From contig JANXAM010000004.1 in the NCBI GenBank assembly GCA_025062155.1, positions 67,160 to 131,159 of the forward strand: a DNA stretch of 64,000 nt, read 5' to 3'. The DNA is from Gloeomargarita sp. SKYB120. Its GTDB lineage: Bacteria; Cyanobacteriota; Cyanobacteriia; Gloeomargaritales; Gloeomargaritaceae. The position numbers and the translations under genes are program-made. The notes beneath the pieces are model-generated. The model saw nothing but the letters and a program-made list of their open reading frames with translations. It did no database searches and had not been told where the DNA came from. Of this stretch, positions 1-60,260 are shown one piece after another (position 1 is the stretch's first letter; every line of letters begins with the position of its first letter).

Positions 1-474
1 TCCCTGATGCTCTTTGACATTTCTGTGCCCCGCAATGTCTCTGCCGATGTGAACGAATTGCCCCACGTGCATACCTACAACGTGGACGACCTGCGGGAAG
101 TGGTCAGTCGCAACCAGGAGCGGCGGCGGCAAATGGTCATCGAAGCCGAAGCCATTTTGGAAGAAGAACTGGAAGCCTTCGACATGTGGTGGCAATCGCT
201 GGAGACGGTGCCTACGCTGAACCAGTTGCGGGAAAAAGTCGAAGCCATTCGCACCCAGGAATTGGAAAAAGCCCTATCCCGTCTCGGCGCTGATTTGAGC
301 GGCAAGCACCGGGAAGTGGTGGAAGCTTTGACCAAAGGCATTGTCAATAAAATCCTGCACGACCCGATGGTGCAATTGCGGGCGCAGCGGGACATTATGG
401 CTCGACGCCGGGCGATTCAAGCGTTACACACCCTGTTTAATCTCAATCCCGAAGAGTCCTTGTCCCAAAGCTAA
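1..474 (+). CDS. hemA: glutamyl-tRNA reductase, C-terminal part (5' end outside window)
   Basis: HemA reduces glutamyl-tRNA to glutamate-1-semialdehyde, the first committed step of tetrapyrrole (chlorophyll, heme, bilin) synthesis in the cytoplasm. The reading frame is already open at base 1, so only the C-terminal part of the protein is visible. It begins just before the DISVPRNV motif that ends the NADPH-binding domain, followed by [10 protein letters not shown] and the long helical dimerisation domain ([32 protein letters not shown]). These are typical of the family. The stop codon overlaps by 4 bp the stop of the convergent helicase gene, so the defence-like cassette abuts hemA with no spacer. 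The identification is firm; the start lies upstream of the window. Confidence 0.93.
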
Positions 475-6400: not shown

Positions 6401-6716
6401 CGTTTTCTTGATTGGTTACTACAGCACGTATGGCTTCAACTTGATGTTGGTAGAGAGGGCGGTCAGGGTCAAAGAATTGAAGAATATCTGGATGCAAAAC
6501 ACCCTGCTCGGTTAATTGACGCAATGTTAAAGAAGGACGATAGGGCTGTGTTCCTTCCAGATAAGGCACTTGCCAGATGTTGCCAGGTTTTTCTAGTTCT
6601 TCCTTGAATTGCTGACGTAGGTTGTCATCTCGCAGGGGATAGGCCGTGAGCAAATAGCGAATTAAATCCTCACGCAACTGACGAATAACAGCAACTGGAT
6701 CAAGATAGTGGTTCAT
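471..6716 (-). CDS. giant DEAH helicase with DUF1998-type region, DruE-like
   Basis: A 2081-aa superfamily 2 helicase, last gene of a three-gene minus-strand cassette. Visible motifs: Walker A ([10 protein letters not shown], about residues 109-118), DEAH box at 290-293, motif III SAT near 329, and a second RecA domain near 1115-1155 with [10 protein letters not shown] and [10 protein letters not shown]. Paired cysteines suggesting zinc binding lie near 525-570, 1020 and 1425-1450. A DUF1998-like segment near 1667-1715 has NVPGGAGYS followed by the [10 protein letters not shown] cluster. About 360 further residues follow. Size, order and DUF1998 agree with DruE, the signature helicase of Druantia anti-phage systems; DISARM DrmA/DrmB and YprA/MrfA helicases are more distant alternatives. 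The start overlaps the upstream gene by 17 bp, suggesting translational coupling. Base composition is visibly more AT-rich than the flanking core genes. The helicase call is firm; DruE membership is inference. Confidence 0.85.
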
Positions 6717-7626
6717 CGTAGATGCACCCTAACCGTTCAAAAAGTATTTTTATCAGACTTTGTTTAATACCCTCAACACGGTAAACCGATTGGCTTATCT
6801 TCTGCAAGTATCGTTCACACCACTGGTAGTAGGCCTTTGGCAAATAGATGCCGCTTAAGTCAAGCTCTTGGTTTCGATAAGGGATAATCCGCAAGGGATA
6901 TCCATCCCTGCGGTCTAAGTAGAACATAGCGTAGATTGCTTGGTCCTTTTCTAATTGATACCACTTCCCATCTTCCAACCAAAAGTACTCCTCAGAATTT
7001 TTACCGAAGTCAACCTTAATCAGGCTTTCATTTGTCAAGCCTTCTCGGGAAAGAAGCCGCCAACGCTCACTTTGATTGCAATGAGCAGGGGTATACTGCC
7101 AACAGTCACTACCTGTCAGCGGCTCAGGAATTGGCTGACTGCTCCAGACCTGGGGTTTGCTAGGCAATGGTAGTTCTTCTATCAGCTCCCGCAAAGTAAC
7201 CAATCTAATCCCGTAGCGAGCTAACTCCATCTTGGCATGATGAAAATCACTCACTCGTGAGAGTAACCTTTCTTGATTGGGATTGCTTGTCTTCAAAATT
7301 CGGTGAGCCAGGGGAAGATAAGCCCTATCACCGCGAAATTTTAGGTGTTCCGTTCGTATATCTTCGCTCCCTGAGAAAATGATTGGCGGGGCCATACAGT
7401 AGTAGTTGTTCGCTCCTCGGAGCACTTCTCCCAACATCTCTAACTTGGATAAAATTTCGTTTATTGCAACCTCAAGTTGCCCATTTTCTTGACCAGGGGC
7501 AGCACAGCGGTGCAAGGCATTGACAATATCAACTCTTCGCAAGGGCGCTGGTAAGGTGGGTTTATCAGGCTGGCGATGTTGACTCAGGAGAGTGATGATC
7601 TTCCTGGTTACTGTGTTCTCATCCAT
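6700..7626 (-). CDS. uncharacterised 308-aa protein, middle gene of helicase cassette
   Basis: I do not recognise this protein. The frame is open from an ATG at 7662 (320 aa), but the ATG at 7626 is preferred because it overlaps the stop of the upstream gene by only 8 bp. The N-terminal 80-90 residues look helical and could form a winged-helix fold (RRVDIVNALHRC, EILSKLEMLGEVLR). The middle is polar and mixed. The C-terminal half is rich in Trp and Tyr (YFWLEDGKWYQLEKDQ, YYQWCERYLQKI). There is no signal peptide, membrane segment or obvious catalytic motif. The end overlaps the helicase start by 17 bp, so the three genes are almost certainly co-translated parts of one system. It may be an adaptor or DNA-recognition subunit, or a split-off part of a DruH-like protein; both ideas are guesses. 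Confidence 0.8.
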   Translation of the reverse strand: MDENTVTRKIITLLSQHRQPDKPTLPAPLRRVDIVNALHRCAAPGQENGQLEVAINEILSKLEMLGEVLRGANNYYCMAPPIIFSGSEDIRTEHLKFRGDRAYLPLAHRILKTSNPNQERLLSRVSDFHHAKMELARYGIRLVTLRELIEELPLPSKPQVWSSQPIPEPLTGSDCWQYTPAHCNQSERWRLLSREGLTNESLIKVDFGKNSEEYFWLEDGKWYQLEKDQAIYAMFYLDRRDGYPLRIIPYRNQELDLSGIYLPKAYYQWCERYLQKISQSVYRVEGIKQSLIKILFERLGCIYDEPLS

Positions 7627-10600
7627 GGCAGTTCTCATCAGGTAAAAGCTCGGCAATTTCATCTGGAGTTAGCGGTTGCCTACTCATCCAAGCGAAACCA
7701 CTGGTCGACCTTAAGCAGTCTAAGGCAACTTCCATATCTGAGGGAGATACTTTCACTAGAGCAATATCCCGTTGGTTTTTATCAGGATGTCGTTGGAAAT
7801 CCAGAATAATACTCCAAAGGTTGTCTTGGCGGATTCGGTCTAACAAGTCCCTACGGAAGTCACCCCTTTTACCTGTTTCAACACCAACCTTGTACCAGTC
7901 CCCTTGACGAGGTTCTAAAATTGCTTGCAGCTTAGCTATTAGTGCATTGGCATCTAGCCACTCAGGGAAGAAGAATTCCCTTCGTTGTAGTGAGCGTAGT
8001 ACCCCTTGAATCCAATTCCTATCCCAGTCCAATTTCAGTGCAACTTTCTGAAATTCATTCAGCAAGCTATGGTCTAGGATAGCGTAGCAAAATTCGGTCA
8101 AATTCTTATTTTCATCGGGAGATATACTAAAGTCATATTGTTTGTAACCGCACCACCAGCCAATAGCTTTCACAACTTTCTCGGCATCGTCAATCTGCCA
8201 GTAGTAGATGCCAGGATTAATATTCTCTAGCGATATAGTGACCTGGGAACCTTCAGGAATCGAAATTGCCACTTGCGCCTCATGGGGTCTCAGTAAATTC
8301 CAACCTATCAGTTTGTAATCAGAATGGGGATTCAATCCTTTCAGCAGGAGAGCTTTGTCTTGCCATTCCCAGGTTATTTGCCTTAGGAAAACTAATGCTT
8401 GGGGTGACTGACCGCTACGCCGGTAATCAAGACGAGTTGCTGACGGTAATAAATCACGCAGGCTGGCTAGTTCCACAGTCAATTGACCGTTTTTGTCAGC
8501 CTGTCGCGTTTGGCAAACGGAGCAGTCAAGCAGTAAATCAACCGGCTCTAAGGGCCATAGCCCTGTGATGATCAATGTCTCAGACCAAAGTTGATGGCTA
8601 CCGTCTAGTTCAAGGGGTAGCTGGTTAATTCTCACGCAATCAACGCCCTGTCTCCTTAGAATTGCAACCTCTGGAAATTCAGCAACATGCTCTTCCCTAA
8701 TCTCATAGCTGGCCTTTACATCGAAAGCTTGGGACCAATCACGCAAGCTAACTCTGTATTGTCCAGGTTGTTTAATCCACTCATCTAAGTTGATAGGTAG
8801 CCAATCATTGCTGTGGAAATCAGTTAATCGTTTCTCGAAAGGAGTGTCTGATGCTGGTGTTTCAATAGCAAGTACTAATTCCGTTTCTTCCGGGCGCCGC
8901 AGATACCAAAGGGTAGGTACTTCCAGATAGGAGAATCTCTGGCGCGGCAGAGATAAACCTCTTAAACAGGCATCTATGGGGGACAAACGCCATTCTACCT
9001 TGCCAAAGGAAAACTCTAATTCGCCGAACTGGGCCGTGAGCTTCAATCGCTTGCCGTACCAGCCGCTGATGCTACAGGGCACATGGGCATCAATCACCTC
9101 TACAGCAACCCCTGGGTGAATCTCATTGCCTTCCTGAGTAAAACAGAAGATTTCCGTAGCACCAGCGATAGACGGTTGAGATTGTAGATATTCGCCGGTC
9201 CAGGCATCAAATATCAATGCAGGGAAGTTAGATGAAATCCCATTGACCTCCCAGCATAGTAACTCCCTCCCCTGGTCATCTGTGAGTTGCCACACCCATT
9301 TTTCAGGGATGTGCTGAAGGGTTTGGGTAAGTTCAGGAATCGTGACTTTTCCAGAGGGGTCAATGCGGCCCTGCCAGTTGACTTGGGGAATGAAGCAAAC
9401 CCCTGGTGACCAGTTAATATGCTGTAGGTATTGCTCAGGAAGGACTAGTTGGATATTTAAGGTTTCTACATCGAGCCATAGTGTTAGAGGTCTGCGCTGG
9501 ATTGTTAGCCAATTCCGGCCTGGTCGTTCAGGACTCAAAATTCGGACAACCGCATCCCAGTCTCTCACAAAAAATTTGAACTCAATTTTTTCCGTTACTA
9601 TAAACTCCTGACGCTGGGCATCATCCAGTAGAATCTCCGGCTGCTTGCCATGCTCCCTTAGAACCACAGCTACACGAGCGATGTCCTGGAGTATTTCCCC
9701 TGAGATAGGCTCCATACCGGGCCGACAACTGTACTCTAGAAACCGCTTGAGTAATCTTCTGCTAGGGTAACGATCTCGACAAATATCGAGCAGCTTTTGG
9801 GCAAGTGATAAGGTGTCGTAATCCCTGATCTGCTGCCAGTTTAGTTCTGCACCTAAGTCCACGATGACATCGGCAAAATGGTGTAGGTTGTGTCGGGGGA
9901 TGCCGCTCTGCAGCCAAAGGGTAGAGACCACTTCGTAGCCGTCTTCTGCAATTGGTAGCTTAAGCTTTTTGATGCCCTGCCTAGCAATTTCTCTTAGTGA
10001 ATTCTGCATCTTCTGTTGACTTGGAATATCTAATCTCTTGCACAAGCCTTCCCAGAAGCGATTTTCATAATCTTCTTCATCACTATCCATGTAGTAAGCA
10101 TACTCAACAAAAGCGAAGGTAATAATTTTAAGCCAGTAGAGGTTTTCTTCATCACCGCAGCGCTCGTGTAGATGATCGTACCTAATGTTGTTTTCCCCGA
10201 ATCGCTTCAGCTCGGAGCCAACGATGCTGAGAATTGTTTTGGTCCCCCAAGTTTCATCAGTGTCTTTTTTAGGCAAGCAGATGCTACCTAGAAAAAGTGG
10301 GTCTTTTTTGGTGCAGCGGGGCCACAGTACATCTTCCCATAGCCACTCTGTATGCTCAACGTTACTCAACCGAAACTCCTTAGGTGGAACAAGAGGTACA
10401 AATTTTCTGACCTTACTGGAAATGGAAGTAAGCTGCCTATCTACAGTTACAGTTGTCGTTTGGCTAGGGGCTGGTACTCCAAGCTCCAAACCTTGCTCTT
10501 GAGGTGGTGACGACTCTTTTCCTTCAGAATGTAGAGCATCTTCCTGTAGAACACGCTGGCACTGCGCCTGTAACTGTTCCAATGTCCGGCGCAACTCGTC

Positions 10601-11446
10601 CTGTCTTGCAGTAAGTGTATCCAACTCTTCCTGACACTGTAACTTGCTAGTTTCTAGTTCCCTTTGACGCTGCTTCAAAACTTCGATTTCATCTCGAAGT
10701 GTTTCAATCTGATGATTCAACTGGCTTTTCTGCTCATGCAGGTTGCTGAGTTCGTCTCGGGCGGACTGGATTTGCTGCTGTAGGTCTTGTCCCTGTGATG
10801 CGAGAAGATTGAGTTCGCAATTTAAATCTTCTTTGGCCTGTCTAAGTGCTTGCACATCTTGCTCTAAATGTTGTCGCTGCTCTGCGAGTTCTTGTCGCCG
10901 GAGTAGTAGAGTCTGTCGCTGATTTTCTAAGTACTCGACTTGGGCACCTAACGCTTGCCTTTGCTGCTCAAGACGATTAATTTCATCCTGAACCTGCTGC
11001 GTTCGATGTTGCAGTTCTTGCTCTTGGAATGAGAGTGCCTGAACCTGCTCTTGTCGGGTCTGGACTTGTTGGTAAAGTTCTGCTTTCTTTTGCTCAAGTT
11101 CATCAATGTCGTTCTGTAGAGACTTTTGGCGGCTCTCTAAGGCGGCAATCCGTTGTTCTAGCTCGTGGCGCTGACCATCTAAAATGCAATGTCGCCTATT
11201 TAATAACTCGATCGCTTGGCGGATGGATTCTCTCTGCTGAATCAGTTGCTCCAGTTGAGCGGATGGAGTGGAAGGCTGTTTTTGAAACTTCTCGATCAGT
11301 AAAACACTAGCAGCAGAAACTGTGGCAATTGCACCGGTTACCACAGCTTTTTGTGGGTTTCTGCTCACAATGAGACTAGCAACAAAACTTAGCCCGAAGA
11401 TGCAACCGCCTGCAATTAACCACCGATGACCCACAGACACCCCCAA
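7619..11446 (-). CDS. 1275-aa membrane-anchored coiled-coil protein, first gene of helicase cassette
   Basis: No firm family assignment. Residues about 8-27 and 33-50 form two hydrophobic segments suited to an N-terminal membrane hairpin. Residues about 60-300 are an almost uninterrupted coiled coil, very rich in Gln, Glu and Leu with heptad spacing. A linker (about 300-345) with acidic and Pro/Thr stretches follows. Next is a mixed helical region with WLWEDVLWPR near 365, a hydrophobic tract FAFVEYAYY near 442, and LWLQSGIPRHNL near 510. A long beta-rich stretch (about 600-1060) looks like tandem immunoglobulin-like modules, followed by a helical C-terminus ending LTPDEIAELLPDE. In size and gene order it could correspond to DruH of Druantia type III, from memory and unverified. 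It is divergent from pflB across a 236-bp gap and likely leads the operon. Composition is AT-richer than the core genome. Confidence 0.8.
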   Translation of the reverse strand: MGVSVGHRWLIAGGCIFGLSFVASLIVSRNPQKAVVTGAIATVSAASVLLIEKFQKQPSTPSAQLEQLIQQRESIRQAIELLNRRHCILDGQRHELEQRIAALESRQKSLQNDIDELEQKKAELYQQVQTRQEQVQALSFQEQELQHRTQQVQDEINRLEQQRQALGAQVEYLENQRQTLLLRRQELAEQRQHLEQDVQALRQAKEDLNCELNLLASQGQDLQQQIQSARDELSNLHEQKSQLNHQIETLRDEIEVLKQRQRELETSKLQCQEELDTLTARQDELRRTLEQLQAQCQRVLQEDALHSEGKESSPPQEQGLELGVPAPSQTTTVTVDRQLTSISSKVRKFVPLVPPKEFRLSNVEHTEWLWEDVLWPRCTKKDPLFLGSICLPKKDTDETWGTKTILSIVGSELKRFGENNIRYDHLHERCGDEENLYWLKIITFAFVEYAYYMDSDEEDYENRFWEGLCKRLDIPSQQKMQNSLREIARQGIKKLKLPIAEDGYEVVSTLWLQSGIPRHNLHHFADVIVDLGAELNWQQIRDYDTLSLAQKLLDICRDRYPSRRLLKRFLEYSCRPGMEPISGEILQDIARVAVVLREHGKQPEILLDDAQRQEFIVTEKIEFKFFVRDWDAVVRILSPERPGRNWLTIQRRPLTLWLDVETLNIQLVLPEQYLQHINWSPGVCFIPQVNWQGRIDPSGKVTIPELTQTLQHIPEKWVWQLTDDQGRELLCWEVNGISSNFPALIFDAWTGEYLQSQPSIAGATEIFCFTQEGNEIHPGVAVEVIDAHVPCSISGWYGKRLKLTAQFGELEFSFGKVEWRLSPIDACLRGLSLPRQRFSYLEVPTLWYLRRPEETELVLAIETPASDTPFEKRLTDFHSNDWLPINLDEWIKQPGQYRVSLRDWSQAFDVKASYEIREEHVAEFPEVAILRRQGVDCVRINQLPLELDGSHQLWSETLIITGLWPLEPVDLLLDCSVCQTRQADKNGQLTVELASLRDLLPSATRLDYRRSGQSPQALVFLRQITWEWQDKALLLKGLNPHSDYKLIGWNLLRPHEAQVAISIPEGSQVTISLENINPGIYYWQIDDAEKVVKAIGWWCGYKQYDFSISPDENKNLTEFCYAILDHSLLNEFQKVALKLDWDRNWIQGVLRSLQRREFFFPEWLDANALIAKLQAILEPRQGDWYKVGVETGKRGDFRRDLLDRIRQDNLWSIILDFQRHPDKNQRDIALVKVSPSDMEVALDCLRSTSGFAWMSRQPLTPDEIAELLPDENCHG

Positions 11447-49694: not shown

Positions 49695-51044
49695 TCAACT
49701 GTCCGTAGCATCGCTGTCCGACTCATCAGTCAGCAGCACGTAAAGATACCGATTCAGAAATAACAGCAGTTCGCGCAACATACCTGCCGCTTGTTCTTCC
49801 GATAGCGGCTCTAACGTAAGCAAATCACGGGGATAAAGTTGCAACCATCGTTGGAGTAAATTTTGGAATGGCTGGGGACCTTCAAACAAGGGCCACAAAG
49901 CTCCGAGAGCAATTGCGTCAAGCTGCACCTCTTCGATTTGGAAGAGACCTTTTACCGGTACTTTCAGATAGTCCGACAACAGAAGCGGCAGGCCACTTTG
50001 TAAACGTGATTTCCAGGCCTGTTGAACCTTTTCATGACAGAGCTGGGGATGGAGAGAAACCAGTGGTTGTTCCGAAGGAGAAACAGGGGACGCCGGCTGT
50101 GGATGACCGCACCACAAATCCAGCAGGCGTTCGTTGGGGTGTAGTAAGTTCAGAAGATGCAAAATTTCCGCCGGACTTGCTCCATCAATCGCCAGTGCCA
50201 ACGCCGCAGGAAGATTTTCCGGGTCTTTGAAAAGCGACGGCAAACGCCAAACCGGCCAATGCACCATTTCAATAAATTCCAATCCCGCCGCTTCCAAACA
50301 GGCAAAAAACTCAGGAATGGTAAACCCCTTATCTCCCTGGAGCAGGTGGTTCATCAGGATAAATTCGGAGAGTTTCTCATTGAGTTTATCCCCCAAACTT
50401 TTTCGGTCTCGGTTCTCCCAGGTTACCCTCTTAACATAAACTTCATCGGCCAGTTGTTCCATAATTTCATAAACTGTCTGGACTTCAAACTCCTCAGGAT
50501 TATCCCGCATCAGCCCTAAAAGACTAAAAAACTCCTGAGCTTGGAAAAAGTATTGACGCTGGTAGCGATTGTGAACATTGACCCGCAGAATACCCTGGGC
50601 CTTGAGAACCTGTTTTAGAGCTGTTAAAATTTCTACTGGATTGGGAACCAATGTCAGCACTTCATCACAATTGATGTAGTCAAATTTCAGCCCCAATTCG
50701 CTAACATTCTCAATCATTAAGACATGAAATTCACAGTTGGAAATTTGGTGAAATTCTAGGCGTTTACGGGCTAATTCAATCGACGCTTCCGATAGGTCAA
50801 TGCCCACCACCCGCGCGCCTGGATTCGCCAGCGCCAGCGCTAAGGCCTTGTACCCTGAGCCGCAACCCGCATCTAAAATGGTCACCTCCTGGGGAGGTCG
50901 CTTCCGATAGCGTAAATAGTAGGGTGTTGTTAGGTTGTGAATAAACAAGGTATCCAAATCGTCTTTGGGCGATGTCTCTAGGGATATGCGCGGGTAGGGC
51001 CCGTAATCAAATTGCTGGCGAATTTTTTCTAAAATCTCATCCAT
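49695..51044 (-). CDS. SAM-dependent methyltransferase
   Basis: A 449-aa protein. Residues about 40-180 are a class I methyltransferase: motif I ILDAGCGSGYKALALA, acidic VVGIDLSEASIELARKRL for SAM ribose binding, and INCDEVLTLVPNP. The last 250 residues are helical with an unfamiliar region (DYLKVPVKGLFQIEEVQL), ending in a strongly acidic tail (LLTDESDSDATDS). The N-terminus YGPYPRISLETSPKDD suggests the group of cyanobacterial methyltransferases found near TPR/glycosylation genes. Substrate unknown. The ATG at 51044 is chosen over a TTG at 51056. Confidence 0.87.
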   Translation of the reverse strand: MDEILEKIRQQFDYGPYPRISLETSPKDDLDTLFIHNLTTPYYLRYRKRPPQEVTILDAGCGSGYKALALALANPGARVVGIDLSEASIELARKRLEFHQISNCEFHVLMIENVSELGLKFDYINCDEVLTLVPNPVEILTALKQVLKAQGILRVNVHNRYQRQYFFQAQEFFSLLGLMRDNPEEFEVQTVYEIMEQLADEVYVKRVTWENRDRKSLGDKLNEKLSEFILMNHLLQGDKGFTIPEFFACLEAAGLEFIEMVHWPVWRLPSLFKDPENLPAALALAIDGASPAEILHLLNLLHPNERLLDLWCGHPQPASPVSPSEQPLVSLHPQLCHEKVQQAWKSRLQSGLPLLLSDYLKVPVKGLFQIEEVQLDAIALGALWPLFEGPQPFQNLLQRWLQLYPRDLLTLEPLSEEQAAGMLRELLLFLNRYLYVLLTDESDSDATDS

Positions 51045-51056
51045 ATCAACCAGCAA

Positions 51057-51400
51057 ACGGTTAAGTTTTTAAATCAGTATAACCGAAAATGGGAGTATCG
51101 CTAGGCATGAACTGGCTTAAAACAATCGGAAATTTGTGGTTCACTGGGCTGTGTTCCTGACGGGTCATCCTGCGTAGGCTATCCGTAGGAGGCGTGTGGC
51201 TGGCATTGGGGAGAGTCAGGGGATAGGGCGCTGGAGACGACGGCTTAGGTTTTGGGGAGTGGTTAGATGGGTCGAGTACGATCTTACGGTCTATCCCATC
51301 ACCGAAGCGATGGCCGCAGCCGCCCTTGCTCCAGGAGTTAACCGTTGAATTTACCAGCACTAGCGGTAGGTTTCGCAAATTCTATGAAGGGTAGGTAGTG
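51057..51400. other. 344-bp stretch without a recognisable gene
   Basis: Lies between the methyltransferase and the IS1-type transposase. One minus-strand frame of 105 codons exists, but it is Pro/Ser/His-rich with no family resemblance and is probably chance. No tRNA, terminator or clear insertion-sequence end could be identified. Confidence 0.6.
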
Positions 51401-52120
51401 CTATGTAAGTAATGATGTATTATAGTGGTGGATGAAGTTGAATATAATGCCGATGTGATTTTCTAGGTTTTTAGAAAAGGACAGAGTTTTCCTCGTCAAG
51501 CGACTCACTCGCTGTCGAAGCGTGTTGTTGAAGCGCTCAATCAAGGACGTCTTACCACTCCCTTCGACACCGACTTCGTGTTGGGATTTCGGAATCACCC
51601 GCCGATAAACTGGCCAAGAATCAGTATAAAATTTTGCCCGTTTTCGCCAAACAGTTGGCACTCTCTTCCATAATTTTTTTGCTGTCTCTATGCTTCTGTC
51701 TCCCACACAGGCGGCTACAATCATACGTGTCTTCCTCTCGGGAACTACCCAGAGCTACTGGAGATGCTTTTTTGAGCCGCAAAACGACCATATCTTGTCG
51801 CATTCCAGCTCTATCTCTTCATCGTCACCGAGCTGAATATCCATCATTTCTGACGTATAAATTGCCTTTTGCTTTACATATTTATACAGCCAAGATTGTG
51901 AAATGCCAGTCACCCGTGAGATGGCGGCAATTGAAAGTTGCTCTGACAGGTCACCTTTGTGCTCCAGAAATGTTTTTTTTCTGGCTTCAGGCATAAATTG
52001 CCGATGGCATTTATAGCAGATATAACGCTGTTTTCCATAGCTAAGCACAGAATGCTTGACATAGGCAGCAACCGGAACCCTACATGTTTCCCTGTTGGTT
52101 GTTGGTTGCTTCTCAAGCGC
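51401..52120 (-). pseudogene. IS1-family transposase interrupted by one amber codon
   Basis: The upper part reads YGKQRYICYKCHRQFMPEAR, the zinc-finger-like end of InsA, then a helix-turn-helix (AAISRVTGISQSWLYKYV) and the first catalytic block ELECDKIWSFCGSKK. A TAG at 51755-51757 follows; the same frame then continues LWVVPERKTRMIVAACVGDRS, shown in part as MIVAACVGDRS, with FYTDSWPVYRRVIP and SLIERFNNTLRQRVSRLTR and KTLSFSKNLE, the IS1 InsB ending. Because the two halves share a frame, a single TGG-to-TAG change (expected WLW) explains the break. The N-terminus upstream of 52048 is also frame-damaged. Confidence 0.8.
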
Positions 52121-52143
52121 GGCAACCTAAATGTTTCCTGCTA

Positions 52144-52186
52144 TAGCAACACGTTCATTATATGACAACCTTAAAAAGCTTAGCTA
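52144..52186. mobile_element. short MITE-like element (43 bp) with TAGC...GCTA ends
   Basis: Starts TAGCAAC and ends GCTTAGCTA, flanked by TA on both sides (52142-52143 and 52187-52188). The termini match the 99-bp elements near 20-24 kb, but the interior is shorter and AT-rich. It lies between the IS1 remnant and the second IS630 remnant and could be a deletion derivative. Confidence 0.4.
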
Positions 52187-52189
52187 TAG

Positions 52190-52567
52190 ACCACATAGAC
52201 CACCTGCTTTGGTGGTATCTGTTTGATTAACTCACCATAAGCCTGTCGCTCTTGCGGGCATAGCCTATCTTTTGCAGGGCTTTAACTCACACCGAAGTGA
52301 GCAGCCATCTCCCGTTGATCCACAAACCGCTGCAATGCTTCCAGGTCCTTCAGTTTATGACTATAGCCTTTTTGATAGCCTTCCTTAGGGTGGACATCTC
52401 CCGTTTCAGACCATTGGTTGAGCCAACATTGTAACGTGCGATATCTCACTTCAACCAGTGTCGCACCCCCTCCCCCAGCTTTCCGACGTGGCTCCGTGCT
52501 GTAAGGCATAGACATCGCTTCGTAACCCATTAGCCTTATTCCACGTCAGACTAAATGTTTTTGGCCA
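52190..52567 (-). pseudogene. IS630-family transposase remnant, second copy
   Basis: Reading the minus strand from 52515: MSMPYSTEPRRKAGGG, LVEVRYRTLQCWLNQW, then LEALQRFVDQREMAAHFGVS with a stop at 52282. After the stop a fragment AYGELIKQIPPKQVVYVV leads towards the first catalytic block, where the copy ends. The N-terminal part is closely related to the copy at 20921 (same VEVRYRTLQ wording), and the 5' flank (ACATTTAGTCTGACG) matches its terminal sequence. The catalytic domain is missing. Confidence 0.75.
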
Positions 52568-52617
52568 TGGATCAACTTTCAGTACTCGCTCAATAACGAG
52601 GTTTTTTCATTTGAATT

Positions 52618-53880
52618 TTAGGAACAGCCATGGTCGCATAACAATCTCTTCCAGTCACCTACTAGTTTCTGCATATCAAAGTTTTTAGCTCTCTCTATTG
52701 ACCTTTCTGAATAGCTTTTCCTTAGTGCTTCGTTTCTAAGAAGTTCTGCTAAGGTTTTTACCCATGTTTTCTCTTTTTCATCTAACGGTTCATTCATCAT
52801 AGAGTATCTTGTTCCAAGGACGGGCATAAGGATGCCATATCGCGCAAGTTCAGGCTCTTTCGTCTCATATTCGGGGTCTGTCTCCGGTGCCAAGATTTCT
52901 CTAGGACCCGATTTGCAGTCAGCAGAAACGATGGGTAAACCACAAGCCATAGCTTCTAGTATTGCGTTAGGCAAACCCTCCCAGAGGGATGGAAACACAA
53001 AAAGAGTCGACCTTGCTATGAACTTGAAGGGGTTCTTCTGAAAACCTACCAGGTAAACGTCGGCATCCTGCTCCAGACCCTCTATGTCCCAAGCACAAGT
53101 TCTGAGGCCAAGTGATCTGGAAAAATCCACTAGGGAATCTTTAAGCTCTCCTTCTCCAAGAATTACAAGCTTCAGCTCTGGAAAAGATTTTTTAAGTTCT
53201 CTGAGCATTCTCAATAAATGCCATTGACCCTTTTGCTGGGTTAGCCTACCCATGTTTAAAAGGGTGGGAGATGAAAAAATTTTTTGGTATTCTCCTAGGG
53301 GTTCTAGCATATTTCTTTGGATTTTTGAAAGGGAAATTGGGTTGTAAATCGTTATCAATTTTCTGTTATCTATGCCAAAGTTTCTAATAAGATCAGTCCT
53401 TAAGACTTTTGATACTGCAACCATGAGATCTGCCCTATTGTATACAGACTTCATTACCAACTTATAAAGTAGTAGGGTAACCTTTCTATCAAATTTACTA
53501 TCTTTTGTATATACATCTTCACAAAGTTCCAATGAATAATAGTTGTGAAAAGACAGGATGACCTTGTCCTTGCCCTTGGTAAGTATATTTAAAAGGTTTG
53601 CCGGTTCAAGTAGGCTAACGGATAGACACACATTCATCCTTTTCTTTAGCTCCTTAAGTTTAAAGAACCTAAAAGCTAAGGTCAGAAACTTCTTAATAAA
53701 GCCCTTCGAGCTAGGAGAGTTCAAGGATATCACCTTGCTCGCCGGTATATCATATGGAAGTTCCTTACGGTCAAAGACAACTATGTAGTCAAAACCCAAC
53801 TCCCTGAGTAGATTTACGGCCACTCGTTGAGCACCACCCTTTGATAAGGAATTAATGATGAGAATTTTGTTAGCTTTCAT
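52618..53880 (-). CDS. GT4 glycosyltransferase of foreign appearance
   Basis: A 420-aa GT-B glycosyltransferase, family 4. The N-terminal acceptor domain begins ILIINSLSKGGAQRVAVNLL. The donor-binding half has LLNMGRLTQQKGQWHLL, KLVILGEGELKDSL, FVFPSLWEGLPNAILEAMA and CGLPIVSADCKSGPREIL, with the EX7E-type motif around the Glu residues. Such enzymes add sugars to lipid-linked oligosaccharides, O-antigen or exopolysaccharide. The coding sequence is markedly AT-rich and uses AGG, AGA and ATA codons freely, unlike every neighbour, so it was probably acquired recently. An IS630 remnant lies on its 3' side and a truncated GT2 gene directly upstream. Confidence 0.9.
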   Translation of the reverse strand: MKANKILIINSLSKGGAQRVAVNLLRELGFDYIVVFDRKELPYDIPASKVISLNSPSSKGFIKKFLTLAFRFFKLKELKKRMNVCLSVSLLEPANLLNILTKGKDKVILSFHNYYSLELCEDVYTKDSKFDRKVTLLLYKLVMKSVYNRADLMVAVSKVLRTDLIRNFGIDNRKLITIYNPISLSKIQRNMLEPLGEYQKIFSSPTLLNMGRLTQQKGQWHLLRMLRELKKSFPELKLVILGEGELKDSLVDFSRSLGLRTCAWDIEGLEQDADVYLVGFQKNPFKFIARSTLFVFPSLWEGLPNAILEAMACGLPIVSADCKSGPREILAPETDPEYETKEPELARYGILMPVLGTRYSMMNEPLDEKEKTWVKTLAELLRNEALRKSYSERSIERAKNFDMQKLVGDWKRLLCDHGCS

Positions 53881-53913
53881 CCCTTACTCCTGCCAGGCGC
53901 AGATATATTTAAG

Positions 53914-54034
53914 CTAAACTCCATCGGCCACCACCCACTCAAAATCCTGGTCCGTCTGGAATGAGCTGCAGCAAATCCCAAGCAGCATTATAGGTGGCGG
54001 TGATAATGCTGAGCAGCGGCTTCCCGTTCGTCAT
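53914..54034 (-). pseudogene. truncated GT2 (GT-A) glycosyltransferase, N-terminal stump
   Basis: From an ATG at 54034 the minus strand reads MTNGKPLLSIITATYNAAWD, the classical start of family 2 glycosyltransferases. After a one-base shift it continues QTDQDFEWVVADGV and then stops at 53914. The rest of the gene is missing exactly where the AT-rich GT4 gene begins. The native gene seems to have been cut by the event that brought in the GT4 gene. No product is expected. Confidence 0.65.
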
Positions 54035-54095: not shown

Positions 54096-55508
54096 TTATC
54101 GCTTGGCCGATTCCCGATACAACTCCTGCACCTGCCATCCCCGTCGTCGCCAGCGCCATATCAACCGGCCTGCCTCCACAAACTCCCGCCACCGTCGCGC
54201 CCAAATCCCCAGGTAACGGGGCTGCAAATGCCGCCAAAGGGGCAAGTAGTCGTTTTCCCAGGCATCCAACAACGACAGGAACAGGCGCACCTCCAGCCAG
54301 GAGGCCCCAGCACCCAAGCGAATCCGCAAGCGTTTGGACGGCCCCCAAGTGGAAAACATGCGCTTGTGGCAGCAGTCATTGACCACCAGCGCTGGCACCG
54401 TGATGGTGAGCGTGGCCTCTATCGGTGCGGTCAAACAACGCACCTGGCGTCGCCGAAAATCCAGCAACCAGTAGTGGTCTTTCCCCTGCTGGATGTGGAA
54501 AAGAACAGTCATGCGAGAAATTTTAGGCAACGCCGGAGGCAAGGCCGCCAAGAGACGGGTGAAATACTGTTCAAATGCCTGGTAATCCGGTTGCACCTGC
54601 GCCTCCTGGGCGTACTGTCTTTCCAGGGTGGGCTGGTATTTTTGGGCCAGGGTGTGGATGTATTCTTCCGCCTTTTGGTAATCGAATTCCCGCAGGGTAA
54701 ATCCCGTTTGCTCCGACCAGGAACTCCCCGGCGGCATCACTACACATTGCGCAGGTAACCCTCGTTCCTGGGCAGTTCGGTTAAAGTATTCGGCAAGGGC
54801 CGCTGGGGAAACCGCCGTGCGGTTAAAGTGGCGGGTCTCCCGGTGTAGAAAGCAGCTATTGCTGGCAAAGGGGACCGCATAGCGCGCCCGGACGTTCAAG
54901 CAAAATTCTGTGAACTCGGCGATGTAGTGCTGGGGGGAACGAAACGCCCCAAACCGGTCGGGGTAGCCCTCGATGCAATAGGGAATTGCCGACGCGCTGG
55001 AAAAACTGCGAAACGCAAAGTCAATCTTGGGAAAGCGCTTTTTGAGCTGCTGCAACGGCAACCCGAAAATTTTACAGTCGTTGGCGTTCAACAGGGTCGT
55101 TTGCCCGTTGGTGAGCACCACCGCCGAATCCACCGTAATCCCGAATTGAAACGAAGATAACCACAGGTTGGCTCCCAAGCGCACCGTGGCTCCGTGGGGA
55201 ATTTCCCGGATGTTTCTAAACCCCAGCGCCCGCAGGTCCTCCACCATGCGACGGGTATGCACCAACGGCACCAGGATGGGGGTATCCCGGTCAAAATAGC
55301 GCAGCGACGGCCCGTGAAAGTGGTCCCAGTGCAAATGGGTGATGTAGATGTAATCGGGTCGCAGGTTGTCAATCAACTCGCGCGGAGGTTCGGGGAAAAG
55401 CCACCAACTGCGCCAGTAGCAGGACCCGCGCAGCCAGGGGTCTATCACCACCGAGACGTTTCCTTCTTCCACCCACAGTCCCGCGTGACTCAGGATGGTA
55501 AAACGCAT
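54096..55508 (-). CDS. MBL-fold metallo-hydrolase
   Basis: A 470-aa protein with an N-terminal metallo-beta-lactamase fold (about 1-230). The zinc motif HLHWDHFHG is near 78, preceded by MRFTILSHAGLWVEEG and VVIDPWLRGSC. A helical C-terminal half (about 270-470) ends in an Arg/Trp-rich tail. The combination recalls the group that includes CMP-N-acetylneuraminate hydroxylase-like and UlaG-like proteins, and its place beside glycosyltransferases is compatible with a sugar or lipid substrate. This is weak inference. It ends 61 bp from the GT2 stump and starts just 6 bp downstream of the metK stop. Confidence 0.82.
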   Translation of the reverse strand: MRFTILSHAGLWVEEGNVSVVIDPWLRGSCYWRSWWLFPEPPRELIDNLRPDYIYITHLHWDHFHGPSLRYFDRDTPILVPLVHTRRMVEDLRALGFRNIREIPHGATVRLGANLWLSSFQFGITVDSAVVLTNGQTTLLNANDCKIFGLPLQQLKKRFPKIDFAFRSFSSASAIPYCIEGYPDRFGAFRSPQHYIAEFTEFCLNVRARYAVPFASNSCFLHRETRHFNRTAVSPAALAEYFNRTAQERGLPAQCVVMPPGSSWSEQTGFTLREFDYQKAEEYIHTLAQKYQPTLERQYAQEAQVQPDYQAFEQYFTRLLAALPPALPKISRMTVLFHIQQGKDHYWLLDFRRRQVRCLTAPIEATLTITVPALVVNDCCHKRMFSTWGPSKRLRIRLGAGASWLEVRLFLSLLDAWENDYLPLWRHLQPRYLGIWARRWREFVEAGRLIWRWRRRGWQVQELYRESAKR

Positions 55509-55514
55509 GGACCG

Positions 55515-56780
55515 TCAGGACACCCCCGAAGCTGACAGGGCCGCTGCTTGCAACTCCTGACTTAACTCGATGTGTTCCCAAGGCAAATCCAGGTCCAACC
55601 GCCCGAAATGCCCGTAGGTGGCCACGTCCTGGTAAAACCGCCCGCCGCGCTCGCGGGGCAAATCCCGCAGGTGGAATTTTTGGATCAGGCCCTCGGGGCG
55701 CAGCTCCACATATTTTTGGATCAGGTCCAACAGCACCGACTCGGGGACCCGTCCCGTGCCAAAGGTTTCCACCAGGATACTCACGGGCCGCGCCTTGCCG
55801 ATGGCGTAACTCACCTGCACTTCACACCGCCGTGCTAGCCCCGCCGCCACGATATTTTTTGCCGCAAACCGGCACCCATAGGCCGCGGAACGGTCCACCT
55901 TGGTGGGGTCCTTGCCGGAGAACGCCCCGCCGCCGTGCCGCGCGTAGCCGCCGTAGGTATCCACAATGATCTTGCGCCCAGTTAAGCCCGAATCACCGCA
56001 GGGGCCGCCCGTCACAAATTTCCCCGTCGGATTGACCAGGAATTTCGTGCGGGCATCGGGGCGCACCGCCGTATCGCTGAACACCGGCAACACCACCGCC
56101 TCCCACAGGTCGCTTTTGATCCGAGCCTGCACCGCATCGTTGCTGGTCAAGTCGCCAATTGTGGGGTCGTGCTGGGTGGAAATCAGGATGGTGTCAATCC
56201 CCACCGGCTGGAAGTCTTCGTAGATCACCGTCACCTGGGTCTTGCCGTCGGGCCGCAGATAGGGCAATTCCCCCAGCTTGCGGACCTGGGCCAACCGCCG
56301 CGCCAACCGGTGCGCCAAAGCAATCGGCAAGGGCATCAACTCCGGCGTCTCATCGCAGGCAAACCCAAACATCAATCCCTGGTCGCCCGCACCCGTCTGG
56401 TCCAAGGGGTCCAAGCTGCCATCCGCCCGTTGCTCCAAGGCCCGGTCCACCCCCTGAGCAATCTCCGGCGACTGCGCATCCATCAACACCTGCACCCGGC
56501 ACTGGTCGCTGGAAAACCCATACTCGGGGTTGGTGTAGCCAATTTCCGCAATCTTCCGCTTGGCCCACCGCTCGTAATCCGCCGCCGTCACCTGCGCCTG
56601 TGTCTGCACTTCTCCTAGGATGATCAGGTCGTTGTTTTTGACCACCACTTCGGCGGCCACCCGGCTGTAGGGGTCGCGGGTGAGCAACTCATCCACAATC
56701 GTGTCGGAAATCTGGTCACACAGTTTGTCTGGATGCCCTTCGGTGACTGACTCTGACGTAAACAGGTAACGGCGTGGCAA
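55515..56780 (-). CDS. metK: S-adenosylmethionine synthetase
   Basis: Makes S-adenosylmethionine from methionine and ATP. Signatures are clear: [31 protein letters not shown] (hexapeptide GAGDQG), and [19 protein letters not shown]. The 421-aa length is typical of cyanobacteria. The only plausible start is a TTG at 56780 giving [17 protein letters not shown], since no in-frame ATG lies close. SAM made here supports the radical-SAM and methyltransferase enzymes encoded elsewhere in the window. No SAM riboswitch was recognised in the leader. Confidence 0.97.
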
Positions 56781-56850
56781 TGGTTGGACCCCCGAAACTC
56801 AATTTAGTTTTCTAAGCTACCAGAGAGACGACCTCGGCGACAAGCGCAGG

Positions 56851-57117
56851 TCAACGGACGTGAAAGCCTGGCGGCACCGGCGCTGCGTAGGGTTCCACCA
56901 CCACCGAAGTCACGTGCGCCGCCGGCGGCCCGTGGTGGCACCAGGCCAGCATCGTCTCGACCGCCTCTGACGCGCCGGCAAACACCGCCCACACCCGTCC
57001 ATCAGGCAAGTTCTGCACCCAACCGTCTAGGCCGAGCTGCAGAGCCTGCTGACGAGTCGCCGCGCGAAAACCCACCCCCTGCACCCGTCCGGAAATCCAC
57101 ACCTGTACGGCTTGCAT
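56851..57117 (-). CDS. acyP: acylphosphatase
   Basis: An 88-aa enzyme hydrolysing acyl phosphates. The active-site loop GRVQGVGFRAA carries the phosphate-binding Arg and WVQNLPDGRV carries the catalytic Asn. The ending FHVR is typical. The ATG at 57117 (MQAVQVWISG) is preferred over 57144. Divergent from htpG, with about 50 bp between the starts. Confidence 0.92.
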   Translation of the reverse strand: MQAVQVWISGRVQGVGFRAATRQQALQLGLDGWVQNLPDGRVWAVFAGASEAVETMLAWCHHGPPAAHVTSVVVEPYAAPVPPGFHVR

Positions 57118-57168
57118 GGACCTGCCTAGAATGAATATGCCCATTCGTTACCCTAGCAGGTGGGGGTC

Positions 57169-59052
57169 ATGTTCGAGCAAGGCACCATTACGATTCACAC
57201 ACAAAATATTTTTCCCATCATCAAAAAGTCCTTGTATTCGGACCACGAAGTCTTTTTGCGGGAACTGGTCTCCAACGGGGTGGACGCCATCGAAAAATTG
57301 AAAATGGTGGCCTATGCGGGTGAAACGGAACTGGGGGATTTTCAACCGGAAATTGTAATTGCGATTGATAAGGACAAGCGCCAGCTCAGTATCAGCGATA
57401 ACGGCATCGGGATGACCGCCGACGAGGTGAAGAAATATATCAACCAGGTGGCTTTTTCCAGCGCTGAGGAATTTATTCAGAAATACCAGGCGGGCGACCG
57501 ACCCCTGATTGGGCACTTTGGGCTGGGGTTTTACTCGGCGTTCATGGTGGCGCAACAGGTGGAGATTGACACGCTGTCCTACAGAAAAGATGCGGAAGCG
57601 GTCCATTGGACCTGCAGCGGCTCGCCGGAATTTACCCTGCGTTCTTCAGAGCGCCAGCAGCGAGGGACTACGGTGACCCTGACGCTGATGGAGGGGGAGG
57701 AGGAATACCTAGAACCGTCGCGGATCCGGGAACTGGTGAAAAAATACTGCGATTTTCTGCCGGTGCCCATCAAGTTAAACGGGGAAGTCCTGAACCGGCA
57801 ACGGGCGATCTGGCGCGAGTCCCCTAGCAGTCTCAGCGAACAGGATTACTTGGAGTTTTATCGCTACCTCTATCCCCTGCAGGAGGAGCCGCTGCTTTGG
57901 GTGCATTTGCAGACCGATTACCCCTTTTTGCTCAACGGCATTCTCTATTTCCCTAAACTGCAACCGGACATTGACGTCACCCGCAGCCAGCTCAAGCTCT
58001 TTTGCAACCAGGTCTTTGTCAGCGACCACTGTGAAGAAATCCTGCCTCGGTTTCTGCTGCCGATGCGGGGCGTCATTGACAGCCCCGACATTCCCTTGAA
58101 CGTTTCCCGCAGCGCCCTGCAAATGGACCGGACGGTGCGCCGCATTGGGGATTTCATTGCCAAGAAAGTGGCAGACCGCCTACGGGAATTGTTTGAGGGG
58201 GATTTTGACCGCTACACCCGCATCTGGCCCGACCTGGGACTGTTTGTGAAATACGGTTGCATCAATGACGAAAAGTTCAAAAAACAGGTGCAGGAGATTC
58301 TCATCTATCGCACGACGGCGGCGTTGCCTGCACCCAACGGCCAGGGCGATGCCACGTTCCATTACACCACGCTGCAGGGCTATCTAGACCGAGCTAAGGG
58401 ACGGCACGACAACCGCGTGTTTTACGCCACCGACGAAGCGGCGCAGGCGACCTATATTGCCCTGCACCAGAGCCAGGGGCTCGAGGTGCTGTTTATGGAT
58501 AGCTTCATCGACCCCCACTTTATCCACTTCCTAGAGCGGGAGTACCCCAACGTCAAATTCAGCCGGGTGGATGCGGACCTGGACGCTCGCTTGCTCGATA
58601 CCAACAAGGCGGCGGAAATCATTGACCCCCGAACCAACAAAACCCGCGCGCAACTGGTGCAGGAACTTTTCCAGACCTATCTCGAAAAACCGAAGGTCAC
58701 GATTCGCACCGAATCCCTGACGGGTGCCGCGCCGCCGGCGATGATCTTGCTGCCGGAAGCCCTGCGACGCCTGCGGGATATGACGGCTCTGTTCCAGCAA
58801 CAAAAACCGGACTTTCCGGAAGAGCACACGCTGGTGGTGAACCTGGCCCATCCGTTAGTGGACAACCTGGTGCGACTGGCGCAGGAGACGGTGGTGGCTG
58901 GGTCGCGGGAGACGCTGCTGCGGAATCTGTGCCGGCACATCTATGACCTGGCCATGCTGGCCCAAAAGCCTCTGGACCCAGAAGGCATGAAGGCGTTTGT
59001 GGAGCGGGCCAGTGACGTGTTGACGCAACTGACCACGCCGGGAGCGGTTTGA
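57169..59052 (+). CDS. htpG: molecular chaperone HtpG (Hsp90)
   Basis: A 627-aa cytosolic Hsp90. The GHKL ATPase domain has SNGVDAIEKL, ISDNGIGMTADEV and IGHFGLGFYSAFMVA. The middle domain contains LFCNQVFVSDHCEEILPRF, shown in parts as LFCNQVFVS and CEEILPRFL, and the Arg finger region NVSRSALQMD. The C-terminal dimerisation domain is shorter and more divergent, as in cyanobacteria. The ATG at 57169 (MFEQGTITIHTQNIFP) is preferred over a GTG three codons upstream. It overlaps hemW as TGATG. In cyanobacteria HtpG interacts with tetrapyrrole enzymes such as HemE and with phycobilisome linkers, so coupling to a HemN-like gene is notable. Confidence 0.96.
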   Translation: MFEQGTITIHTQNIFPIIKKSLYSDHEVFLRELVSNGVDAIEKLKMVAYAGETELGDFQPEIVIAIDKDKRQLSISDNGIGMTADEVKKYINQVAFSSAEEFIQKYQAGDRPLIGHFGLGFYSAFMVAQQVEIDTLSYRKDAEAVHWTCSGSPEFTLRSSERQQRGTTVTLTLMEGEEEYLEPSRIRELVKKYCDFLPVPIKLNGEVLNRQRAIWRESPSSLSEQDYLEFYRYLYPLQEEPLLWVHLQTDYPFLLNGILYFPKLQPDIDVTRSQLKLFCNQVFVSDHCEEILPRFLLPMRGVIDSPDIPLNVSRSALQMDRTVRRIGDFIAKKVADRLRELFEGDFDRYTRIWPDLGLFVKYGCINDEKFKKQVQEILIYRTTAALPAPNGQGDATFHYTTLQGYLDRAKGRHDNRVFYATDEAAQATYIALHQSQGLEVLFMDSFIDPHFIHFLEREYPNVKFSRVDADLDARLLDTNKAAEIIDPRTNKTRAQLVQELFQTYLEKPKVTIRTESLTGAAPPAMILLPEALRRLRDMTALFQQQKPDFPEEHTLVVNLAHPLVDNLVRLAQETVVAGSRETLLRNLCRHIYDLAMLAQKPLDPEGMKAFVERASDVLTQLTTPGAV

Positions 59053-60260
59053 TGGCCCAGGCGGCCTACGTTCATATCCCCTTTTGCCGCCAGCGCTGCC
59101 ATTACTGCGACTTTCCAGTGGTAGTGGATGCGCGGGTGGATTCCCCCTGGCGCGCGGCCTACCTGGCGGCTCTGGTGCGGGAGATCCAGCTAACGCCGGC
59201 GGTGGGGGGGCCGCTCACGTCAGTCTTTTTTGGCGGTGGGACGCCCTCGTTGCTCACGCCTGCCGAACTTGCCTCTGTCTTGCAAGCGCTAGAGCGTCAG
59301 TTTGGGTTTGCCGAGGGCATCGAAATCTCCCTGGAAGCCGACCCTGGCACGCCGGGAATTGCCTACCTACGGGATTACCAGCGACTGGGGGTCAATCGCT
59401 TGAGCGTGGGGGTGCAGAGTTTTACGCCCCAGCTCTTGCGCGCGAGTGGCCGAACCCACACAGTGGAAGACATCGCCGAGGCCGTGGCGCAAATTCATCG
59501 ATGCGGCTGGGAAAACTGGAATTTGGATTTGCTGCAGGGCCTGCCCGGGCAGACACTCGCCGATTGGCAAGCCGATTTGACCCAAGCCGTGCGGGCCCAA
59601 CCGACTCATCTTTCCACGTACGACTTGACGCTGGAACCCAAGACCCGTTTTTACCGAGCGGTGCAGCGGGGGCAACTGGCCCTGCCGGATGAGGCACTCA
59701 CGGCGCAGATGTACGAAATGGCCCATGCCTTCTTGGAAAGCCACGGCTACGAGCACTACGAGATTTCCAACTATGCGCGACCGGGGTACCAGTGCCGGCA
59801 CAACTTGACCTACTGGCGCAACCAACCCTACTACGGGTTTGGCCTGGGAGCGACGAGCTATGTCAATCAAGTGCGTTTTCAGCGGCCCACCACCCTGCGT
59901 GGGTATTTCCAGTGGGTGGAGCAGCAGGCACAGCGGGGTGTGGTGCAGTACCCAGACCCCCCCCTGACGCCTGAAGAGACGCTTATCGAGGGGCTGTTGC
60001 TAGGACTGCGGCTGAAGGAGGGAGTGTCTCTGGCAGACCTGCTCCAAAACGTTCCCGAGCCAGCCCGTTCCCTCTACCACACCCGCATCCAACAAACCCT
60101 GCAGGCGTACGCCGACGTCAAATGGGTGGGCCATGCCGGAGCGCGCTGGTTTCTCCTGGCACCCCAGGGGTTTCTCATGGCGAACACGGTTTTGGTCCAG
60201 GTGTGGCAAGCGATGGAGACAGGGGCACCACCACCGGCGCTGACGTTGTCCAGCGCTTGA
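59052..60260 (+). CDS. hemW: HemW-type radical SAM protein (HemN-like)
   Basis: A 402-aa radical SAM protein. The cluster motif [13 protein letters not shown] (C-x3-C-x2-C) is at the N-terminus. SAM-binding [29 protein letters not shown] and LLQGLPGQT follow, with [20 protein letters not shown] further on, all typical of HemW. HemW proteins bind heme and act as heme chaperones rather than coproporphyrinogen oxidase; the shorter N-terminus supports HemW over HemN. The start overlaps the htpG stop. The last 86 bp overlap the convergent dxr gene. Confidence 0.93.

Follow-up and report, generated by a model that had tools for sequence, protein, structure and literature searches.

The genome of the cyanobacterium Gloeomargarita sp. 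SKYB120 carries a glycosyltransferase gene that stands out by its base composition, which raises the questions of where the gene came from, how it came to lie where it does and what it may do for its host. We examined it within a window of 64,000 nucleotides (assembly GCA_025062155.1, contig JANXAM010000004.1, positions 67,160 to 131,159; coordinates below are those of the window). The gene occupies 52618-53880 on the minus strand as an intact open reading frame (ORF) of 420 aa, with an ATG start and no internal stops. Its GT4 glycosyltransferase domains score above the curated Pfam cut-offs (87.8, 87.1 and 46.7 against 27, 26.4 and 28.5 bits for Glycos_transf_1, Glyco_trans_1_4 and Glyco_transf_4), and its foreign character is seen in codon use, homologues and tree.

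The gene has a GC content of 0.403, whereas that of the window is 0.557. GC at third codon positions (GC3) is 0.408, compared with a mean of 0.673 (standard deviation 0.096, minimum 0.451) for 33 other greedily chosen window ORFs of at least 150 aa, among them one (59084-59692) that is probably spurious. AGA and AGG make up 22 of 25 arginine codons, where the next highest window ORF reaches 0.385, and ATA accounts for 10 of 24 isoleucine codons (next highest, 0.273). These values bear out the first-pass annotation, which had described an AT-rich GT4 gene with alien codons. They also differ from the host's other GT4 genes: in eight of the 16 places in its genome that match PF00534, AGA and AGG (AGR) supply 3-12% of arginine codons. 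The codon taste had further been likened to that of hot-spring Aquificales, and this likeness holds. In nine thermophile gene clusters of 18-19 kb that contain homologues, 72-91% of arginines are encoded by AGA or AGG, and all nine clusters model the gene better (per-codon log-likelihood -1.14 to -1.23) than a native codon model does (-1.45), under which native genes average -1.12. The GC3 of the gene nevertheless exceeds that of 18 homologues (0.17-0.36), which may reflect either a richer donor or partial amelioration, two explanations that look the same here. Only the claim of uniformly GC-rich neighbours went too far, since the insertion sequence (IS) remnants beside the gene have 44-47% GC and a methyltransferase gene at 49695-51056 has 48%, the latter with ordinary arginine codons (AGR 1/22). 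A second AT-rich stretch of the window, with GC3 of about 0.45-0.48, lies at 471-11446; within it, 474-6716 matches Druantia DruE models (E 1e-249) and 7622-11446 encodes a 1275-aa coiled-coil-like protein (AGR 35/91 codons).

A search of 20 relatives at E 1e-15 found no match to the GT4 gene in any of six congeners, and no second copy was found in the host genome at the same threshold. Nine of 386 cyanobacterial genomes matched at E 1e-30, the host itself included, with four candidates scored per genome; the best match in the other 385 had 35% identity (E 1.4e-38). Scanning the GTDB species collection by pattern gave 13 loci, of which the top ones came from bacterium HR19, a Thermodesulfobacteriaceae MAG and a Thermocrinis MAG. 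Genome-by-genome searches, which covered about five phyla, found matches in 12 of 136 Aquificota genomes at E <=1e-40 (the best in G521, with 53% identity and E 1.2e-149; another in G443, with E 3.7e-148), in 5 of 297 Thermodesulfobacteriota (best E 8.2e-135), in 3 of 198 Nitrospirota (best E 4.1e-111) and in three of the five genomes of HR19's phylum. These sequences belong to an unnamed thermophile GT4 subfamily that is ~40-53% identical to the window GT4 over ~410 residues and shares its codon taste and the C-terminal motif GPREILAP..TD. Foreign composition and patchy presence, by which horizontal acquisition is judged, are thus both found in this gene. Carriage by a phage or virus was rejected because a scan of viral_contigs, with patterns that were built from one query and could miss a distant relative, returned no GT4 relative.

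Some of the homologous loci are irregular. One Aquificota homologue (L041, genome G464) is a pseudogene with three TGA and three TAA codons inside, and the 444-aa copy of G463 (L045/L051) has an apparent 45-residue internal repeat, query residues 233-277 being matched twice. The contigs of L060 (G404) and L046 (G513) stop near the boundary between the N- and C-terminal halves of the gene, which would follow if the C-half were an assembly-breaking repeat.

In a tree of 46 rows, the window protein is sister to that of G521 (support 99/90) and then to that of G443 (100/98), both from Aquificota. The enclosing clade (100/100) has 23 rows and otherwise consists of Aquificota, Thermodesulfobacteriota, Nitrospirota and bacterium HR19; 12 cyanobacterial GT4 rows fall outside it. 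The rows left out were L013 (two partial copies), L041 (six stops), L046 (a fragment), L045 (the same ORF as L051) and the duplicates L038, L054 and L060; L110-L112 were found later. The nearest homologues are therefore the opposite of a wholly cyanobacterial set with the same composition, and codon statistics and phylogeny both favour a foreign, thermophile-type origin. It is extremely improbable that the gene is a vertically inherited cyanobacterial GT4 of locally biased composition. Such genes are common in cyanobacteria, as the 16 PF00534 places of the host itself illustrate, but constraining the window protein to the cyanobacterial clade costs 86 log units and is rejected (p-AU 1.6e-6), the congeners are without the gene, and the eight other GT4 genes of the host have normal codons.

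The two halves of the protein were also analysed separately, after nine long or partial rows of the 46 had been dropped (L015, L019, L020, L021, L023, L025, L055, L056 and L061). The N-half tree again gives the Aquificota sisters (99/88 and 100/98), and in the C-half tree the window gene falls among the thermophile rows (100/99), with support for no particular sister. The full-length Aquificota placement thus rests on the N-terminal half, and the C-half says only "thermophile clade". The guess that the donor was of Aquificales type gains support from the two tree sisters, with the caveats that the C-half taken by itself does not point to Aquificota in particular and that identity to the nearest relative reaches only 53%, so that the actual donor is unsampled.

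We judge it unlikely that the gene came from another thermophile phylum, whether Thermodesulfobacteriota, Nitrospirota, the lineage of HR19 or one not yet sampled, with Aquificota merely the best-sampled holders of a shared mobile family. Such a donor would fit a 100/100 clade that mixes phyla, a C-half no closer to Aquificota than to Nitrospirota or HR19 (52-59% for all), and the nearly identical copies of G459 (Aquificota) and G570 (Thermodesulfobacteriota), with branches of 0.026 and 0.028; against it, the two nearest rows are Aquificota on both the full-length and the N-half tree, with starred support. To judge from these comparisons, Aquificota rather than a neighbouring thermophile phylum is most likely the source. 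The GT4 family itself moves between thermophile phyla. The polysaccharide clusters of G459 (L076) and G570 (L077), one on a 1.83-Mb contig and the other on 469 kb, contain nearly the same GT4 copies (branches 0.01-0.05), and these near-identical copies reflect either recent cross-phylum transfer or a mis-binned contig. Thermophilic cyanobacteria have been described in hot-spring mats (PMC9600594); the passages concerned mention neither Aquificales nor Thermocrinis, so that a habitat shared with the cyanobacterium is presumed here. We found no report on glycosyltransferase transfer between Aquificales and cyanobacteria in hot springs. A foreign glycosyltransferase with thermophile relatives in a cyanobacterium is a known kind of event, of which this is a new case.

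The surroundings of the gene were compared with the congener that has the nearest homologue of the neighbouring gene (G002, 81%), where the gene order is metK, a metallo-beta-lactamase-fold gene, GT2 and a native GT4. On the right, the native metallo-beta-lactamase-fold gene of the window (54096-55508, minus strand) is collinear with G002 contig C7. Similarity is unbroken over 54145-57956 and then recurs only at 53916-53959, where the window matches the start of the next G002 gene, GT2, at 93% identity. The native GT2 survives as a stub on the minus strand (53916-54034), comprising about the first 40 codons with a 14-bp frame-shifting deletion before it is cut. The foreign GT4 begins 34 bp after the cut-off GT2, behind a leader (53881-53915, minus strand) that has no counterpart in G002 and contains an AGGAG with a putative ribosome-binding role. 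The GT2 and GT4 sequence of G002 has no other match in the host genome. The left side corresponds to another G002 contig, C13, and this collinearity ends at about 51045, within the native methyltransferase gene (49695-51056, minus strand).

Between this gene and the GT4 lie an IS1-family transposase remnant with an in-frame stop (51394-52038, minus strand; copies in the host genome are 93% identical at full length, others lower) and two repeats without assigned strand. One, of ~110 bp (52037-52146), has many copies in the host genome, occurs also in congener G006 and is possibly a small non-autonomous element. The second is a remnant of another repeated element (52144-52575), with pieces ~70-98% identical in many places of the host genome; an ORF within it (52282-52530) has no Pfam match. 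The remaining 3' flank of the GT4 (52576-52617, minus strand) is AT-rich (33% GC), reaches the repeat debris and showed no similarity in a search of the genus. The IS debris and truncated GT2 gene between which the first reading had placed the GT4 are thus both real. Since the GT4 and the repeats lie between native ends, the foreign piece spans at most ~52576-53915.

The spot varies in the genus anyway: in G001, G003, G004 and G005 a glutathione S-transferase-like gene follows the metallo-beta-lactamase gene (domain scans of G001, G004 and G005), and in G006 the contig stops inside the latter. The GT2 gene of G002 (locus L069, 14277-15070) itself has an in-frame stop, and decay of this GT2 may therefore not be confined to one species.

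Several other arrangements were considered. A composite transposon was rejected, as IS debris is present on the 3' side only and there are no long flanking repeats; the sole flanking candidate, a 14-nt repeat (D2) at 51041 and 54156, is near chance. The methyltransferase gene at 49695-51056 was rejected as part of the foreign piece, being native and collinear with G002, with homologues in G006, G004, G001 and G003. The leader contains a frame (IYLRLAGVR) whose stop overlaps the GT4 start, which resembles the gene order of G521. It was set aside as the tail of a donor methyltransferase, because it is missing the conserved LYFQ ending found in all seven cluster methyltransferases looked at; its score was reached by 14 of 5000 shuffles, with frame and partner picked after looking. 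A promoter search returned four sites where 2.4 were expected, no evidence beyond chance.

The comparison with G002 also bears on whether another genome's piece was wrongly joined in assembly or binning, which we hold to be very improbable. The genome is in 91 contigs and the left side of the gene consists of repeats, a typical place for a mis-join; against this, the right junction (53916) is in unique sequence, 34 bp from the native stub, and the gene is flanked on either side by native genes in the interior of a 136-kb contig.

The AlphaFold2 model of the protein (pLDDT 90.6) has a GT-B layout, with an N-domain to about residue 177, a C-domain beyond it and terminal helices at 368-416. The best Foldseek matches are BshA, a WlaC-type glycosyltransferase (6eji), PglA, PimA and WaaG, with TM scores mostly of 0.6-0.7 by query length. 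The donor site of GT4 enzymes is marked by an EX7E motif and basic residues. In the window protein E301 and E309 are eight residues apart and accompanied by R212 and K217; these four residues and G16 are invariant across 23 sequences (the window GT4 and 22 homologues). R212, K217, E301 and E309 are residues of catalytic type. The best NCBIfam match is PglJ, the GalNAc transferase of Campylobacter N-glycan assembly (NF050063; residues 7-331, E 2.9e-51), but at 174.8 bits against an equivalog cut-off of 500 the protein is PglJ-like and not PglJ. The best solved sequence relatives, a WaaB-type LPS 1,6-galactosyltransferase (5n7z) and the TagF-like Cps3D (8qoy), match mainly in the C-terminal domain and only at E 3e-12 and 6e-17, and the LPS 1,6-galactosyltransferase model (NF007396) gives 77.7 bits against a cut-off of 385. 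We predict a retaining GT-B sugar transferase that acts on a lipid-linked surface glycan.

The thermophile homologues sit in polysaccharide clusters with a MurJ/MATE-type flippase, methyltransferases, an asparagine-synthase-like amidotransferase, GT2 and GT4 genes, to which the G521 cluster adds a PF00953 sugar-phosphate transferase. Whereas the members of the subfamily are clustered, often with a second paralogue, the window GT4 is alone. A search without a positive control found one distinctive donor-cluster methyltransferase in none of seven genus genomes, so the window enzyme would be without at least that partner. This missing partner is one reason to consider that the gene is a functionless passenger, which arrived with the rearrangement and has yet to decay; the codons rare for the host and the IS debris and broken GT2 around it point the same way. 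We regard this as somewhat unlikely, given a complete 420-aa frame that stays intact beside an already decayed GT2 and IS1, keeps the residues common to all 22 homologues and is preceded by the ribosome-binding-like AGGAG.

Taken as a whole, we are fairly confident in the account of a retaining GT-B gene of the GT4 family, acquired from a thermophile (most likely of Aquificota), located at a backbone rearrangement and with a surface-glycan role. The gene would come from the pool of surface-polysaccharide genes of hot-spring bacteria. A donor piece of at most ~1.35 kb, the gene plus some tens of bp at either end, would have landed at a chromosome rearrangement point, where two backbone pieces that are on separate contigs in the nearest congener meet. 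The native GT2 has been cut after ~40 codons, and the native GT4 that stands behind it in that congener is gone. The gene is presumably expressed in its cyanobacterial host. The C-terminal domain would bind a nucleotide sugar, probably a UDP-sugar, the N-terminal domain would take a lipid-linked sugar acceptor, and the enzyme is predicted to add one sugar to a growing cell-surface glycan, probably instead of, or beside, the lost native GT2/GT4 pair. The gene represents a well-supported case of gene flow from a thermophile of Aquificota type to a phototroph, at a site where native surface-glycan transferase genes were lost.

The thermophile relatives revealed a second pattern. Five genomes (G521, G443, G459, G570 and G518; loci L074, L075, L076, L077 and L082) contain two GT4 copies whose N-halves are 27-35% identical and whose C-halves are 82-92% identical; these are all five of the examined thermophile genomes with two different N-types. 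Between different genomes, C-halves are 66-69% identical. The switch in the DNA is sharp: in G443 the pair is 62% identical up to codon 179 and 98-100% from there on, including a run of 253 identical nucleotides. The homogenised tracts are 597-707 nt long, with edges near the domain boundary (first residues 171-213 and last residues 375-411 in the numbering of the window protein), and none of 1000 shuffles reached any tract. Plain conservation was rejected as the cause of this likeness, because third codon positions of the C-domain match at 65-95% within genomes compared with 38-53% between them. The C-half tree groups the copies by genome (G459 and G570 by genome pair) and the N-half tree mostly by type; since G459 and G570 count as one event in the C-half tree, the pairs represent about four independent lineages.

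A CPR pair (G406) acts as a negative case, with no tract and a score (18) that 142 of 1000 shuffles also reached. The host of the window gene has a single copy and no such tract, and the G670 pair is a whole-gene duplicate. The G402 pair is cut by a contig end: in its locus (L013, 7000-9405), a GT4 copy without an N-half lies beside a TnpB-like ORF; next comes a second copy, and the two have 108 identical nt of C-half in common, starting at residue 199. Identity drops again at the last helix in the pairs, to 3-9 of 13-14 residues. In GT-B enzymes this helix packs on the N-domain, as PMC1885805 states for UGT; here the segment is short and variable, so the point is weak.

As the sequences stand, the pairs would best be explained if gene conversion had repeatedly overwritten the donor domain while selection kept the acceptor domains distinct; the alternative is replacement of the N-domain after duplication. 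The vertebrate UGT1 locus, in which variable N-terminal exons are combined with constant C-terminal exons (PMC1885805), offers an analogy. Both systems consist of GT-B enzymes that differ in the acceptor domain and share one donor domain within a genome, but UGT1 shares its exons by splicing, whereas the thermophile pairs are separate complete genes with homogenised DNA. On balance we lean slightly towards regarding the pairs as a bacterial form of the UGT1-like principle, in which two GT4 genes of one polysaccharide cluster would retain distinct acceptor N-domains of ancient origin, their donor (C-terminal Rossmann) domains would be overwritten time and again by conversion within each genome, both would use the same activated sugar, and a member could leave its pair for another host, such as this cyanobacterium. 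The window gene looks like a stranded lone member of such a thermophile paralogue family. We found no report of homogenised donor domains in bacterial glycosyltransferase pairs, which is weak evidence of novelty given poor coverage of subscription papers.

Donor-domain homogenisation in these relatives matters more than the window gene, and it is the part worth following. If the principle is true, a shared, converted C-domain would allow the same sugar donor and different acceptors to be predicted from sequence alone. As the donor specificity of glycosyltransferases is hard to predict, such a donor-sharing rule would be directly testable with a few purified proteins.
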